DNA of 64,000 nt from Archangium violaceum (GTDB lineage Bacteria; Myxococcota; Myxococcia; Myxococcales; Myxococcaceae), in the NCBI RefSeq assembly GCF_016887565.1, contig NZ_CP069396.1, positions 6,492,001 to 6,556,000 of the forward strand, in the 5' to 3' direction. Positions 6,266 to 13,361 of the stretch are shown here, piece by piece (within the stretch, counting starts at the first letter, position 1; the number at the start of each line of letters is the position of its first letter). The notes beneath the pieces are model-generated. The model had not been told where the DNA came from and ran no database searches. It worked only from the letters and a program-made list of their open reading frames with translations. Position numbers and translations under genes: made by a program.

Positions 6266-7516
6266 TCAGGTGGTGGGGTCGACGATCGGCTCCGGCATCA
6301 CCCACAGCCCCGCGGGGTTTCCATAGGCCTGATCGAAGGCGTAGAGGATGCCCGTCCAGCGATCCCAGAAGGTGGCCCAGTTGTACTCGGTGGGAGGGGA
6401 GGTGAAGGGGTTGCCGTCCGGATCCGGCCGGCTGTAGGCATAGTCGGCGTACGTCCACTCCACGGTGCCGAAGTACGTCTTGAGCAGCGGGGTGATGGCC
6501 TCCAGCAGCGCGGAGCGGGACACCTCGTCCGGGCGCTGCACGGCCGGCGCGAAGACGGGCTGCGCCATGTCGTGCTGCTCGCGCCAGGCCACGTAGTTGT
6601 TGCCCATGGCGATGAGCGCGTCGCGCGCGGTCGGCGTGGGCGCCAGGCGGGCCTTCTCGTAGAGCGCGAAGGCGGCCACCAGCAGGCTCTTCCAGTGCAT
6701 GCCCGGGAAGATGCTCTCGAACTGGTAGGGCCGGGGTGTGTCGTTGGCGTGGGCGAGCGCGTACTCATAGGCGGCCCGAGCCTCCTGCGGCACGGCCTCC
6801 GGGAGGGAGAACTCCGTCAGCACGCGCTCGGGCGTCACCTCGCCGGTGGCGGTCCGGCGCCAGTCGAGGAACAGGCGCCCCGAGCCACCGATGTCCGTGA
6901 AGATGGCGACGTTGCCCTCGTGCAGGGTGCGCTCCAGGGTGATGACGAGGGACTCCGCCTTGTCGAGCGGAAGGAAGCCCGGCGCGCTCCAGTAGAGCGA
7001 GGCGAAGCGCAGGGTGGTGGCGGTGAGGGTGCGCGGGTCGGCCAGCGCCTCCCAGTTCATGGCCGTGGTGAGCGAGGCGATCGACGTGGCCGCGTCGAGG
7101 GGAATGCCGTGCAGGACGAGCTGCAGGGAGAGGCTCTCGACGGTGAGCCGCAGCTCGCCGGTGAGGCCCAGCCGGTCGAGGGCGTTGCCCACGGTGAGCA
7201 CCGGCTGTCCCCGAGCCGCGGCGATCGCCTGCCGCGCGAGGGCCGTGCCGAGCATGCCCTGGCCACCGGTCTGGGAGGCATGGGGCGCGAAGGTGAACCA
7301 GTTGGGGCGCACGGTGCTGCTGCCTCCGGGCTGGAGGCTCGGATCGAGCAGGGCGCCCAGCTCGTAGGCGATCTCGATGTAGCCCAGGGTGATGCGGCGG
7401 TTGTCCTGCAGCGGCGTGGGCTCCTCCGCGGCGTGGGCGCGGGACGCCAGCCCCAGGACGGCCAGCAGCAGCGCGGCGGTGGCGAGGGGGCGGAACGACG
7501 GCTCTTGAATCTCCAC
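6266..7516 (-). CDS. Secreted protein, function unknown
   Basis: 416 residues. A GTG start at 7516 is fixed by a clear AGGAG ten bases upstream. The N-terminus is a signal peptide (FRPLATAALLLAVLGLASRAHA, cleavage expected after AHA near residue 29). The mature part is rich in Trp, Tyr and Pro, with no Cys cluster or catalytic motif that I recognise. The C-terminal half (YGNPAGLWVMPEPI at the end) looks like a folded domain, not a repeat protein. It is transcribed divergently from the trehalase gene across a 261-bp AT-richer gap, so the two may share control. I cannot assign a function. Confidence 0.75.
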   Translation of the reverse strand: MEIQEPSFRPLATAALLLAVLGLASRAHAAEEPTPLQDNRRITLGYIEIAYELGALLDPSLQPGGSSTVRPNWFTFAPHASQTGGQGMLGTALARQAIAAARGQPVLTVGNALDRLGLTGELRLTVESLSLQLVLHGIPLDAATSIASLTTAMNWEALADPRTLTATTLRFASLYWSAPGFLPLDKAESLVITLERTLHEGNVAIFTDIGGSGRLFLDWRRTATGEVTPERVLTEFSLPEAVPQEARAAYEYALAHANDTPRPYQFESIFPGMHWKSLLVAAFALYEKARLAPTPTARDALIAMGNNYVAWREQHDMAQPVFAPAVQRPDEVSRSALLEAITPLLKTYFGTVEWTYADYAYSRPDPDGNPFTSPPTEYNWATFWDRWTGILYAFDQAYGNPAGLWVMPEPIVDPTT

Positions 7517-7620
7517 GAGGTGTCTTCTCCTGCGGTAGGGGGAACGGGGTGGAGCGGCGCGCACCGTAGTCACCTCGCGCGGCGTTCCAAACGGTTTCCC
7601 GGCGGATGATCGCAGGATGC

Positions 7621-7777: not shown

Positions 7778-9730
7778 GTGCCCATCCGGACGCCGTCTCC
7801 CCGTCTTCTCCGCTCCGCTTCCTCCCCGAAGAATCCGCTTCCCCTCGCCGCGCCGTCGGTTCCCGCCGCACGGCCCGCGACTCCGGGTTCCCTGTCCGCC
7901 ACCACGGCCACCGCGCGCCTCGCCTACGAGGTGCTGATGACCCTGGATCTCGATGGCGATGGTCGCCTCACCGCTCGTGACGCCGAGCGCGCCCGCGAGA
8001 GTGGGCAGCGCTTCGCGGTGGAGCTGGTGCTCGGCCCGGGGGCCCGCCTCGAGCTGGCCGGGGCGGAGCGGCTCGCGCACGCCGCGGACGTCCTCTCCGA
8101 GGAGGTGCTCGAGGGGCGGGGCGATGAGCCGGGACTGCCCGTGGAGCGGATGCTCACCCCACGCACCGAGACGATGCGGCGGCTGATCGACCAGGGCTGG
8201 GACGGACTCGTCCGCCGCTCGGACCGGGCCGAGGATCTGAAGAAGGCGCTCGCGGTGATGCCGGTGAAGGACCCGGAGGGCCGGCTGCGCGTGTACGTCC
8301 CCGCGCGCGATCGCAAGGCCCTCAAGAAGCTGCGTGCCGAGGCCCGGCGCTCCGGCGGCCTGGAGATGGTGCCGCTCCAGAAGCCTCGCGGGGCCGAGGA
8401 CTGGCGGGCGCTCATGCGCGCGCCGGGGATGCTCTACCTCCCGCGCCCCTACATCGTCCCGGGTGGCCGCTTCGTGCAGATGTTCGGCTGGGACAGCTAC
8501 TTCAACGCTCGGGGCGCCCTGGCCTCCGGCCGCTACGAGCTCGCGAGGGATCTGCTCGAGAACCAGCTCTACGAGATCGAGCACTATGGGAAGATCCCCA
8601 ACTCGAACCTCAGCTACCACCTGTCGCGGACCCAGCCGCCGCTCATGCCCCGGCTGGCGCTGGAGCTCCACGCGGTGCGCCCGGACCGGCGCCTGCTGAA
8701 GCGGGTGGCGAAGGTGGCCGAGCAGGAGCTCGAGAACGTCTTCCGCACGGGCCCGCGCGCCACGCCGAGCGGGCTGTCCCGCTACAAGGACGACGCCGAG
8801 GGGCCCGACGCCGAGGATCTGTCCGCGTTCTACGCTGGCTCGCGGCCGGACGACGCCGAGTTCCACCGCCACGACCGCGCCATCCGCGAGAGCGGCTGGG
8901 ACATGTGCCACCGCTTCGGCACGGCCACGCACCACCACGAGCCGGTGTGCCTCAACTCGCTGCTGTTCCAGTACGAGATGGATCTCGCGGAGATCCTCCG
9001 CCTGGTGGAAGGGGAGGACTCGCTGCGGGCGGCCCGGTACGCGAAGGCGGCGAAGGCCCGGGCGCGCACCATGCGCACGCGCTTCTGGGATGCCGGGCGG
9101 GGGATGTTCTTCGATCACGACTTCGTGGCCGGACGCCGCTCGCGCTACGAGTCCCTGGCCACCTTCTATCCGCTGTGGACGGGCTGGGCTTCCCGGGAGG
9201 AGGCCGCCGCCGTGGCCGCCGCGCTCCCGCGCTTCCTCCATGACGGAGGCCTGACCTCCAGCACCCGCGCCTCGCGCGAGGCCGCCGGTGGAGAGGCCCT
9301 GCAGTGGGACTGGCCCTTTGGCTGGGCGCCGCACCAGGTCATCGTGGTGGAGGGACTGCGCCGCTACGGCTTCCACGCCGAGGCCGATGCGGTGGCCTAC
9401 CGCTGGGTGTCCATGATCCTGGACATCGCGGGGAGCCACAACGGCCTGGTGAAGGAGAAGTATGACGTGGTGAGCAGGTCCGCCGAGGTGGCCGTGGAGT
9501 ACGGCAACCAGGGCGCGGATCGCGGGCCGCTGCTGGCGCCCCGGTCCGAGCGGACGCTGGGCTTCGCCTGGACGAATGCCTCGGTGTTGCTGCTGCTGAA
9601 CGGCTTGTCCCCCGAGCTGCGCGAGGCGCTCGATGCCGGCCTCCCCGCCGACAGCGTGCTCGGGCCTCCGCGCGACCAGGGCGGCAGCGGCCGTTCCCGG
9701 AAGAAGCGCGGCGCTCGCATCGCCGCGTGA
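7778..9730 (+). CDS. Trehalase (GH37) with N-terminal EF-hand
   Basis: 650 residues. Trehalase (EC 3.2.1.28) hydrolyses trehalose to two glucose molecules. Both family signatures are present: PGGRFVQMFGWDSYF (~228-242) and QWDWPFGWAP (~509-518). The usual HHEPVCLNSLLFQYE-type substrate loop lies between them. Near residue 54 is DLDGDGRLTARD, an EF-hand-type calcium loop like that preceding the catalytic domain of fungal neutral trehalases. No signal peptide is seen, so it is probably cytoplasmic. GTG 7778 is chosen because AGAAGG lies six bases upstream; an ATG at 7661 would add an unconvincing 39 residues. It converges on the HEAT-repeat gene across a strong inverted repeat. Calcium regulation is an inference. 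Confidence 0.93.
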   Translation: MPIRTPSPRLLRSASSPKNPLPLAAPSVPAARPATPGSLSATTATARLAYEVLMTLDLDGDGRLTARDAERARESGQRFAVELVLGPGARLELAGAERLAHAADVLSEEVLEGRGDEPGLPVERMLTPRTETMRRLIDQGWDGLVRRSDRAEDLKKALAVMPVKDPEGRLRVYVPARDRKALKKLRAEARRSGGLEMVPLQKPRGAEDWRALMRAPGMLYLPRPYIVPGGRFVQMFGWDSYFNARGALASGRYELARDLLENQLYEIEHYGKIPNSNLSYHLSRTQPPLMPRLALELHAVRPDRRLLKRVAKVAEQELENVFRTGPRATPSGLSRYKDDAEGPDAEDLSAFYAGSRPDDAEFHRHDRAIRESGWDMCHRFGTATHHHEPVCLNSLLFQYEMDLAEILRLVEGEDSLRAARYAKAAKARARTMRTRFWDAGRGMFFDHDFVAGRRSRYESLATFYPLWTGWASREEAAAVAAALPRFLHDGGLTSSTRASREAAGGEALQWDWPFGWAPHQVIVVEGLRRYGFHAEADAVAYRWVSMILDIAGSHNGLVKEKYDVVSRSAEVAVEYGNQGADRGPLLAPRSERTLGFAWTNASVLLLLNGLSPELREALDAGLPADSVLGPPRDQGGSGRSRKKRGARIAA

Positions 9731-9829: not shown

Positions 9830-12800
9830 TCAACCCGTCGTGACCGTGACGGCCCGGGCGGCCGCGCGGACGGCGGGGCGCGGATGCTGGCGCAGCTCGC
9901 GCAGGAGGTTCCGGGCCTCGGCTCCGCGCCAGTACCGGCGCGTGCCCGCCTCGCGCACGAGCTCCAGTGCCACGAGTGGCGCTCCGGTTCGCACGCGGGC
10001 CGCCACGTCCAGCAGCAGCTCCGGTGCGCACTCCTCGTTCGCGAACTTCATCACCGACGCCACCATGGACGCGAGCGCCTGGGCGAAGAAGGGCTCCTCG
10101 CGGGTCTCCGCCGCCAGCCCGAGCAGCACGTCCGCGACCGGGCCCGCCTCCTTCCAGGTCAGACAGTGCACCCGGATCCGGGCGGACAGGGGCCACAGCG
10201 CGGCGTCCCGGGTGAGTACGCGCGCCACCTCGGCCAGGCGCGGACGCAGGCCCAGCACCACCGGACGCGGCTGGACCAGCAGCGCCTCGATGAGCTGCTT
10301 CAGCCGGTTGAACGCGGGCAGATCCCCCTGGGGCCCGGCGTCAGGCTCCTCCTGCATGGAGGCGGAGACGAGCGCCGCCACGCAGTCCACCACCTGCTCG
10401 AAGGCGCGCCCATCCAGCGTCACCAGCACCAGCGCCAGGGTGGCGGCATTCCACTCGTCCCCGCTGGAGAGATCCACGATGCGCGCCGCCGCGAGCCGAG
10501 CCACCCGCTCCTCGAGTCCCGCCGCCCAGTGAATCAGCGCATGGAAGGTCCGCTGGCGCACCTCGGAGTCCGGGTGGTCCACCAGTTGGAAGAGGAGCCC
10601 GGCGTAGCGGGGACGGAGCCGGGCGGGGAGCGCCTCGGGAGGCTGCTTGAGGAGACTCCGGGCCACGTACGGATCCGGGTCGCGGACCAGGATCTCCATC
10701 ATGTCCCAGGCGGACTCCTCCGTCTCCAACAGCCGGCGCGCGGCGTGGCCCATGGCGATGCACACGTCCCGGTGGACGTGGGGCTTGTCCCATTGCTGGC
10801 GCAGCAGGGCCAGGGCGCGCGGATCCCGGGCGGTGGCGAGCTGCCGCACCAGCTCCTTGTGCACCGTCACCTTCAGTCTGTCGCGCGAGAGCAGCGAGGC
10901 CAGCGTCCCGGTGCGGTGGGAGGGGGACAGTTGCTCCAGGATTCCGGGCAGCACGTACATGGCCACCCGCGCGCGGTCCCCGTCCAGGTGCTCCAGCAGC
11001 AGCGGGAGCGCGGACCCGGGCCGGTCCAGCCGGCCGAATGCGCCGAGCACGGCCTCCACCGTGGGCACGTCATTCCACCCGAGGAAGGGCTGGAGGTGCT
11101 TCTCCGTCACCACCGGCAGCCGGGCCAGGGTGTACAGCACGTCCGTCCGCTCCCAGTCACAGAGCACCTCATCGTTCGCGATCCGCAGGAGCAGCTCCCG
11201 GTAGCGCTCCTGGTGCCGGGGCAGCCAGCGGTGGAAACCTTCACGCAACACGGGCACCCAACCCCGGCCGTCCACGGCGAAGCGGCCCTCCAGCGGGCGG
11301 CCCTCGAGGTAGGGCTCCAACGACTCCGGCCGGTGCCGGTGAAGGTGCGCGAGCACCCGCGGGAAGATGATGGCCGAGGCGTCCCGTGCCAGCAGCTTGC
11401 GCACGCGCTGATCCCTCGTCCGGGGCGATTCCAGCCAGTACTGGATGGCCCGGTGTGCGTGCCACTCGACCTCCGACTCGGTGAGCGGTTCGAGCAGGGC
11501 CTGGAGCATGTCCACGTTCCATGCGCGCCGGCCGAGCGTCTCGCACAGGGCGAAGATGAGTCTGGCCCGCTCGTGCGGGCCGGCGGCGCGGATCCGCGGC
11601 AGCAGGGCGGCGACCAGGTGGTGCTCGGCACCTCGGGGCAGACCGTCGAGCCGGAGGGTATCCAGGGAGTCGTCCAGCCCGAGCAGCCGCTCCATCGTCC
11701 TCAGGGCGAATTGGAAGAGGGCGCCCCGGTGATCCATGAGGTGGGCACGGAGGAGCTCGAAGGTCAGGACTCGCAGCGCGGTCCGGGTGGCCTCCGAGGT
11801 GTCGCGCGCTTCGAGCGCGTCCGTCACCAACGTCTCCAGGAATGGAATGTGCTCGGAGGTGTAGAGGCCGGAGATGGCTTCGAGCGCGCGCAGGACCTCG
11901 CGGCGGACCGGATCCTGCTCGTTCTTCAGCCGGGAGAGATAGGTGAGCGTCTCGGTCACTCCCCGGCCCGACAGGCCGGTGCTGGCCACGAGGAGCGAGA
12001 GCGCCATCGCCCGGTCATGGGCGTCGCTGGCGAAGGCGGCCTCCTGGAGTTGCTCGCGCGAGTGCTCGATGGTGCGCAAGGCCAGCAGGCAGAGCCGCTG
12101 ATGGCGATCCTCCCGCACCTCGGGCCGTTCGAGCTGACGCGCCACCTCGGCGTCCCGCAGGGCCAGGGGCAGGGCGCAGAGGAGCTTCGTCTGCAATCGA
12201 GGCGGAGGGACGCCGTCGAAGGCATGGGTGAAGAGGGCGGCCCGCTCGCAGGGGGAGACTCGCTGCAACAGCCGGGTGAGGAGATCCTGGCGATCCACCA
12301 GCATGCGTGCGAGCTCGAGGCGCTGATCGAAGGAGAAGCACCTCGCCACCTCGCGGAGCATGCCCTGTGTCAGGACCCTGTCGTTCAGGCCCTTGCGGAG
12401 CGCGGGCCGGCCGAGGAGCTCGAAGAGCTGCTCCGGGTACTCGCGCACGAGCCGGGGCAGGGCCTTCACCACGAGCTCGGGCAGGGCGGTGGTGGTGTGC
12501 TCGCGCACGAGGGCGAGCACCGCCTCGCACCGGAGGACGAGCAGCTCCCTCAGGGGCAGGTCCCAGGTGAGGAAGAGCCCCTGGCGCTCCGAGGCGGCGG
12601 CCCCGGTGAACCGGGCCTGGAGGAAGGCGAGCACCGTGTCCGGGTGGCGGTGCACCAGCGTGGGCCAGGCCCGCACGGCATGGGCGAGCTCCGGCAGCAA
12701 GTGCCGCACGTCCTCGGTGTCCAGCGCGGGGAGCAGCAGGGCCGCCTCGCCGTCGCCATGGCGCGCGCGGACGACCGGGAGCAGCCGGGCCGCGAGCCGC

Positions 12801-13168
12801 TCCCGCCGGGCGAGCGCCACGCCCTTGAGCACCCGTCGGCGGATCATCGAGGGCAGCTCGGGGAGCACCTGCTCGAGGGCGGCCTCGTCCCGGATGGCTT
12901 TCCCCGCGAGGGAGGCGGCGCGTCCCCGCACCGCGCGGGAGGGGTGGGTGAGGCCGCGGAGCAGCACGGCCTCGTTCCGGGCGGCGCGGGCCATCACCAG
13001 CGCCAGGGTCGCCTCGTGCGCATCTCCGGCCACCAGCTCGCCCATCAACGCCGGCAGGGACGGGCTGTCCCGGGCCTCATGCCCGATCCTGGCCACGCGC
13101 TCGAGGCGTGCCCTGTAGCCCTGTGAGTCCAACTCCTCCAGCAGCGCGGCGCGAGTGGGTACCTGCAA
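9830..13168 (-). CDS. Large HEAT-repeat protein
   Basis: 1112 residues made almost entirely of amphipathic helix pairs typical of HEAT/ARM solenoids, for example SLPALMGELVAGDAHEATLALVMARA, DPDPYVARSLLKQ, and a C-terminal RQHPRPAVRAAARAVTV. There are no catalytic motifs, signal peptide or transmembrane helix, so it is probably a cytosolic scaffold or binding protein. TTG 13168 is preferred because GGAGGGGAG sits five bases upstream. An in-frame ATG at 13297 would add 43 residues of Arg/Gly-rich sequence that does not look coding. The gene is divergent from the histidine kinase at 13420, with a palindromic operator candidate in the gap. Giant HEAT proteins are common in myxobacteria; the partner is unknown. 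Confidence 0.85.
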   Translation of the reverse strand: MQVPTRAALLEELDSQGYRARLERVARIGHEARDSPSLPALMGELVAGDAHEATLALVMARAARNEAVLLRGLTHPSRAVRGRAASLAGKAIRDEAALEQVLPELPSMIRRRVLKGVALARRERLAARLLPVVRARHGDGEAALLLPALDTEDVRHLLPELAHAVRAWPTLVHRHPDTVLAFLQARFTGAAASERQGLFLTWDLPLRELLVLRCEAVLALVREHTTTALPELVVKALPRLVREYPEQLFELLGRPALRKGLNDRVLTQGMLREVARCFSFDQRLELARMLVDRQDLLTRLLQRVSPCERAALFTHAFDGVPPPRLQTKLLCALPLALRDAEVARQLERPEVREDRHQRLCLLALRTIEHSREQLQEAAFASDAHDRAMALSLLVASTGLSGRGVTETLTYLSRLKNEQDPVRREVLRALEAISGLYTSEHIPFLETLVTDALEARDTSEATRTALRVLTFELLRAHLMDHRGALFQFALRTMERLLGLDDSLDTLRLDGLPRGAEHHLVAALLPRIRAAGPHERARLIFALCETLGRRAWNVDMLQALLEPLTESEVEWHAHRAIQYWLESPRTRDQRVRKLLARDASAIIFPRVLAHLHRHRPESLEPYLEGRPLEGRFAVDGRGWVPVLREGFHRWLPRHQERYRELLLRIANDEVLCDWERTDVLYTLARLPVVTEKHLQPFLGWNDVPTVEAVLGAFGRLDRPGSALPLLLEHLDGDRARVAMYVLPGILEQLSPSHRTGTLASLLSRDRLKVTVHKELVRQLATARDPRALALLRQQWDKPHVHRDVCIAMGHAARRLLETEESAWDMMEILVRDPDPYVARSLLKQPPEALPARLRPRYAGLLFQLVDHPDSEVRQRTFHALIHWAAGLEERVARLAAARIVDLSSGDEWNAATLALVLVTLDGRAFEQVVDCVAALVSASMQEEPDAGPQGDLPAFNRLKQLIEALLVQPRPVVLGLRPRLAEVARVLTRDAALWPLSARIRVHCLTWKEAGPVADVLLGLAAETREEPFFAQALASMVASVMKFANEECAPELLLDVAARVRTGAPLVALELVREAGTRRYWRGAEARNLLRELRQHPRPAVRAAARAVTVTTG

Positions 13169-13361
13169 GCGTTCTCCCCTCCGGTGGAAGCCCTGACTCC
13201 ACGTGCCCCGGACGTCCGGTGCCCGTCCGTCTGACAAGCCCCTCGGGCCTGTAGGCCCACGACGCACTTCTCCCTTCATTGCCTGGAGCGGATCCAACGG
13301 AGACCCTCTCGGACAATGAGAATTTCAGAACGGTCGGGTGCGCGTGGCGGGGGCGGGAGAG

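Follow-up and report, generated by a model that had tools for sequence, protein, structure and literature searches.

The question raised by this locus is whether the EF-hand-type loop near the N-terminus of a myxobacterial trehalase is an isolated motif or part of a calcium-binding domain (CBD) like that of the fungal neutral trehalases, and whether metal binding there could control trehalose breakdown. Here we analyzed the gene within a 64,000-nucleotide stretch of the Archangium violaceum genome (the window), and determined computationally the CBD fold, the register of the loop with the yeast Ca2+ loop, the conservation of the loop, and the co-occurrence of the CBD with an EYxNxG motif in the active-site loop.

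The trehalase and its N-terminal domain

The gene lies at 7778..9730 (+) and encodes 650 residues from a GTG start, which is backed by orthologues with a Met at the same place or close by. It is a real ORF for a GH37 trehalase as judged by its Pfam PF01204 match (E 1.4e-83; 282 bits against a cut-off of 21), with hydrolysis of trehalose as the predicted activity. Since there is no evident signal peptide, the enzyme is probably cytosolic; peak 12-residue hydropathy over the first 45 residues is 0.98, compared with 2.4–3.2 for relatives with signal-like N-termini. The genome (13.2 Mb, one contig) has a second GH37 gene, L001, at C1:12164329, whose product has a hydrophobic N-terminus and lacks the EF-hand-type loop. 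The nearest relatives with a species name are Archangium lansinium (86%) and A. violaceum (83%).

Residues 1–43 (7778..7906, +) form a Pro/Ser/Arg-rich tail that is predicted to be disordered, with pLDDT of about 33–41 across residues 1–30; this Ser-rich segment is poorly conserved among the aligned orthologues. Next is a domain of about residues 44–129 (7907..8164, +) that, by model pLDDT and structural match, has the fold of the Ca2+-binding domain of yeast Nth1. The GH37 (α/α)6 catalytic domain, residues 127–628 (8156..9661, +), matches PF01204 and has structural matches in both Nth1 and E. coli TreA. The TreA/TreF type shares the GH37 fold and lacks the CBD, and TreA aligns over the catalytic part only, from model residue 103 or later and mostly from 127. 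From knowledge of the family, we take D375 (8900..8902, +) to be the general acid and E560 of the EKYD motif (9455..9457, +) to be the general base. Both are invariant in a 39-row modelling alignment, composed of the window protein and 38 of the 74 ORFs carried on from the GTDB search, and the title of an Arabidopsis PDB entry names a D380A acid mutant. Residues 574–581 (9497..9520, +) form the active-site-loop motif EYGNQGAD, which is identical in yeast Nth1.

In the whole-protein model, pLDDT is about 90–95 across residues 41–140 (91–95 in blocks across 41–130), and the loop DLDGDGRLTARD lies in a confidently modelled helix-loop-helix. Foldseek ranked 5n6n_C, Nth1 in its 14-3-3 complex, first for the whole model. 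VIA aligned model residues 30..632 with 5n6n_C residues 72..751 (587 residues, rmsd 3.3, Z 45.7), so the CBD, as modelled, appears to sit about where it lies in the activated yeast complex. With the Nth1 entries lacking 14-3-3, the VIA alignment begins only at residue 127 or 128. The best VIA match of the CBD alone was to residues 96..181 of 5n6n_C (82 residues, rmsd 2.8) with a Z of 7.8, which by the tool's own scale is often reached by models that have no relatives; it is the gap of 3.3 to the next row (Z 4.5) that carries weight. This match arose from a second look, and we regard it as good support, short of proof, because Foldseek returned nothing for the lone CBD at E<=0.001 and four of the five lone-domain models were poor (pLDDT of only 54–70). 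AlphaFold training could also have included 5n6n. As modelled, the loop is part of a whole N-terminal domain with the Nth1 CBD fold rather than an isolated EF-hand. The earlier note, which had likened the loop to the Ca2+ domain of fungal neutral trehalases, was right and understated the case: the comparison holds for the whole domain in its fold, its place, and the register of its loop.

The loop and its counterpart in Nth1

The loop occupies residues 57–68 (7946..7981, +), within three residues of where it had previously been placed (near residue 54), and is flanked in the model by helices 46–54 and 66–74. Position 12 of an EF-hand is usually Glu, and an Asp there often weakens Ca2+ binding. 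The window loop has Asp at positions 1, 3, and 5, and its earlier description as canonical stands for positions 1, 3, 5, 6, 8, and 9 but not for position 12, which is Asp, as in yeast, in all aligned members. With standard residues at positions 1, 3, 5, and 9 and the yeast-like Asp at 12, this Asp-rich loop is a candidate Ca2+ binder. In the window protein, none of the Pfam EF-hand models matched at E<=1; in two relatives, L016 and L020, the matches stayed below cut-off.

D57, D61, G62, T65, and D68 (loop positions 1, 5, 6, 9, and 12) are invariant in 14/14 aligned myxobacterial orthologues, a set that includes the window protein, with the remaining rows 45–97% identical to it. The lack of conservation among orthologues that the earlier note had named as grounds for giving up its reading was thus checked and did not occur. 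In seven pairwise comparisons, the loop carried many silent changes and few or no amino acid changes, and the simple-count dN/dS was 0.12–0.34 for the domain versus 0.43–1.20 for the preceding tail. Six-frame open stretches of the window, 101,464 residues in all, contain the pattern D.[DN].[DN]G.[ILV]...[DE] once, and shuffling the window protein 20,000 times produced it in 10 shuffles; we consider the conservation stronger evidence than this rarity. One myxobacterial genome (G046) encodes two CBD trehalase paralogues, L018 and L020. The L018 loop, DVGRDGKITVDD, has a Gly at position 3, which perhaps weakens its metal site.

Yeast neutral trehalase was the top hit of a single-sequence PDB search with the window protein, at 268–270 bits compared with 151–155 for TreA. 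A profile of the 14 myxobacterial orthologues also had Nth1 on top, at 404 bits versus 234 for periplasmic TreA. The alignment with Nth1 begins at profile position 47 and places DLDGDGRLTARD on Nth1 residues 114–125, DTDKNYQITIED; TreA and plant trehalase join the same profile only from about position 218. The window enzyme and yeast Nth1 (PDB 5n6n, 5jta, 5nis, 5m4a) therefore share the order of tail, CBD, and GH37 domain, the CBD fold, the loop position with Asp at 1, 3, and 12, and the EYGNQGAD of the active-site loop. Nth1 is cytosolic, as is presumed for the window enzyme. Apart from being bacterial, the latter differs in showing no conserved 14-3-3/phosphorylation tail, in lacking the roughly 16-residue insert that Nth1 has ahead of VPGGRF, and in having no match to the Pfam family PF07492 (Trehalase_Ca-bi), unlike what would be expected of an Nth1-type enzyme.

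PF07492 matched neither the window protein (E<=1) nor L016 or L020. A genome search with it found 0/195 genomes in the phylum, and since the controls were silent too, this zero says little. The myxobacterial CBD profile alone ranked Nth1 97–181 third in a set of 1000 sequences made up of it and 999 shuffles. The isolated CBD is too diverged for sequence alone, and it is the structure that decides. The sequence gap between the myxobacterial CBD and Nth1 is bridged by relatives in the phylum that holds a Rhodothermia genome. With a profile of six of their CBDs, Nth1 residues 97–181 scored 80.8 bits, four distant myxobacterial CBDs scored 21.4, 17.8, 14.9, and 13.1 bits, and the best of 993 shuffles scored 7.4 bits. 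The CBD of the window protein itself scored a non-significant 4.7 bits, lower than several shuffles, and the sixth myxobacterial CBD in this test, from its close relative L012, was absent among the matches listed.

Distribution, active-site motif, and descent

CBD trehalases were counted by query coverage through the loop region. In Myxococcota they are present in 21/193 genomes (22 loci), leaving 172 sampled genomes with no CBD-type match. The phylum of the Rhodothermia genome has them in 8/296 genomes; all eight (L134, L136, L138, L141, L143, L144, L164, and L165) were read, and each contains the loop. This phylum is probably Bacteroidota in GTDB, while NCBI assigns the Rhodothermia MAG (L099) to Rhodothermota. 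The acidobacterial phylum sample gave 2/347 genomes, one of them cut by a contig end, and the phylum holding Anabaena (cyanobacteria) gave 0/386. L150 stops at a contig edge. Among the best 80 of the 320 GTDB loci found, 75 were readable (L050, L053, L105, L106, and L110 gave no readable ORF), 74 ORFs were carried on, and six had the domain, all in Myxococcota. L096, in which a loop-like DRDDSGAL lies ahead of the likely start, was excluded from the count. No CBD was seen on plasmids, where 0/79 matching records cover 80% of the query. Most bacterial GH37 relatives searched thus lack the CBD, as the earlier note had stated. L093 is titled Nevskia soli (BOG_genome_mining isolate), and its phylum sample shares genomes listed for the acidobacterial sample; it is probably mislabelled.

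Among the enzymes found, those of the Rhodothermia phylum stand nearest to Nth1. L144 scores 660 bits against Nth1 across nearly its whole length, versus 140–143 against TreA. PF07492 was above its cut-off in 4/6 of these proteins scanned, which means that a Pfam scan can already pick out some of the bacterial Nth1-type enzymes; the myxobacterial CBD trehalases scanned were missed by it. Like the window enzyme, the Rhodothermia-phylum proteins have a CBD with the loop, a GH37 domain, and EYxNxG where it was read, but they are much closer to Nth1, and several have signal-peptide-like N-termini (hydrophobic in L134, L136, L138, and L141; not in L143 or L144). The short GH37 trehalases of Acidobacteria, Cyanobacteria, and Archangium (L001) share the GH37 domain and catalytic Asp/Glu with the window enzyme but contain neither the CBD nor EYxNxG. 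By eye, those of Archangium and Acidobacteria mostly begin with a signal-peptide-like segment, which the window enzyme does not.

Among 127 distinct ORFs, 29/29 CBD proteins and 0/98 others have EYxNxG in the stretch that follows the catalytic Glu. The pattern that defines the CBD itself demands Asp at positions 1 and 12 and Asp/Asn at position 5, so these 29 proteins are evidence for the co-occurrence of motif and domain and not for those Asp residues. The active-site loop of L165 was left unread, as another EKYN came first. This association fits a CBD that acts through the active-site loop; the related sequences are not independent, and the link may reflect shared descent rather than coupling.

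Trees were built on the catalytic domain only, with the CBD excluded and Nth1 as the one eukaryotic sequence. In the later tree, the 12 myxobacterial CBD rows form one clade (100/96) apart from Nth1, and Nth1 forms another with nine bacterial sequences (100/100). These nine group without Nth1 (98/90), giving no evidence in this tree that Nth1 nests inside its close bacterial relatives. The short type also forms a clade (92/99), and the branching among the myxobacterial, Nth1-containing, and short-type clades is a three-way fork. TreF-type plasmid rows L146 and L147 share a separate branch with L148 and L123. Nth1 and the bacterial sequences close to it had grouped with the short type (90/83) in the first tree, a grouping that was lost once three rows were added; L149 was missing from that tree and present in the later one, and L145 was in neither. 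An AU test on the 41-row tree did not reject a single clade of all CBD proteins (p 0.365). The CBD was either gained once, or present early and then lost in the short type.

The term eukaryote-like, which had been applied to the loop, would imply a trait taken over from fungi, yet the domain is present in several bacterial groups and the tree does not put the bacterial forms inside the fungal one, for which there is one sequence. With relatives in a few bacterial groups besides the myxobacteria, this element of control is probably not peculiar to fungi. Contamination with fungal DNA, or a recent transfer into Archangium, was considered and is unsupported: orthologues are present in 21/193 Myxococcota, and 12 of them form one clade apart from Nth1.

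Possible role of the metal

In the yeast enzyme, bound Ca2+ is described as stabilizing the contact between the CBD and the flexible part of the catalytic domain, which raises activity (PMC10847541). Within the 14-3-3 complex, the CBD is held in position against the catalytic domain and the flexible part of the active site is stabilized (PMC9523730, PMC10847541). Docking of the yeast CBD additionally depends on phosphorylation and 14-3-3. By analogy, we lean toward a bacterial trehalase of the Nth1 type, made of tail, CBD, and GH37 domain, in which the Ca2+-loaded CBD would dock and order the active-site loop without 14-3-3. The Asp-rich loop would bind Ca2+, and the metal-loaded CBD would then dock onto the catalytic domain as in active Nth1. 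Once docked, it would order the flexible loop above the active site, with efficient trehalose hydrolysis only in this docked, ordered state. Docking in the bacterial enzyme would presumably need neither phosphorylation nor 14-3-3, so that metal occupancy alone would set activity. We favor ordering without 14-3-3 because the yeast-type control tail is not conserved here.

The main rival is a purely structural metal site, a less probable reading that still merits serious weight. Ca2+ or another divalent ion would be bound permanently at folding, and the CBD would be a fixed brace with no role in control. For the fission-yeast trehalase, the need for Ca2+ is reviewed as a folding requirement (PMC10969515, citing Franco 2003), and the tail that bears the control sites in yeast (PMC10847541) is not conserved here. 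A fixed brace would also fit the model, in which the CBD is firmly ordered with no partner present, and those Rhodothermia-phylum relatives with signal-peptide-like N-termini would work where Ca2+ is plentiful. However, the yeast homologue is regulated, and the window protein and several relatives look cytosolic; cytosolic free Ca2+ is low and variable.

It is improbable that the loop is no longer selective for Ca2+ and either binds Mg2+ or stays empty, with the domain kept for packing. The Asp at position 12 in all aligned members and the Gly at position 3 of paralogue L018 would be in keeping with such a loss, but Nth1 also has Asp at 12, with Ca2+ seen in its crystal (PMC9523730), and the window loop DLDGDGRLTARD is more canonical, at D5 and G6, than the Nth1 loop DTDKNYQITIED. 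Far less probable again is that the EF-like motif arose by chance or convergence and has no relation to the fungal domain. The silence of the Pfam EF-hand models and PF07492 at E<=1 in the window protein, and the lack of a direct significant sequence match for the isolated domain, would be expected of such a motif; the shared fold, the place before GH37, the loop register, the bridging sequences, and the conservation of the loop all argue against it. A chance loop was rejected on orthologue conservation and domain fold.

A further and doubtful suggestion is that a Ca2+-controlled trehalase switch predates the fungi: bacteria would have had the CBD and ordered the active-site loop with Ca2+ only, so as to free their trehalose stores, and kinase and 14-3-3 control of the docking step would have been added later in fungi. 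The myxobacterial enzymes would then be living examples of a simple, calcium-only trehalase switch.

The trehalase gene is flanked on both sides by opposite-strand genes: upstream at 6266-7531 (−), an uncharacterized protein whose start resembles a signal peptide and which matches no Pfam family, and downstream at 9830-13297 (−), a 1155-residue HEAT-repeat protein whose gene is convergent with that of the trehalase. Of these, only the upstream neighbor is kept, in two of the six loci checked; its counterparts in A. lansinium and A. violaceum are in the same place and 75–77% identical, and none was found near the trehalase gene in L036–L039. The HEAT-repeat neighbor is kept at none of the six, and no TreS is present in the 64-kb window. 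In Myxococcus xanthus, trehalose is reported to build up in spores, with treS, treY, and otsAB raised (PMC2875238). A cytosolic trehalase would suit the mobilization of spore trehalose, but nothing ties this enzyme to spores, as most sampled Myxococcota have no match and further bacterial groups have it too. The parts of a Streptomyces spore review that bear on this mention only a trehalase and, in a separate place, a protein with an EF-hand.

The literature searched, mostly outside subscription journals, held no description of a bacterial CBD trehalase. A 2024 review, in the sections that deal with Nth1, calls its control by phosphorylation, calcium binding, and 14-3-3 unique compared with prokaryote and higher-eukaryote trehalases (PMC10847541). 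The bacterial CBD enzymes would separate the old control, by metal and domain docking, from the fungal addition of 14-3-3, and would provide a 14-3-3-free system for testing the role of calcium. They also point to a possible link in bacteria between Ca2+ and trehalose breakdown.
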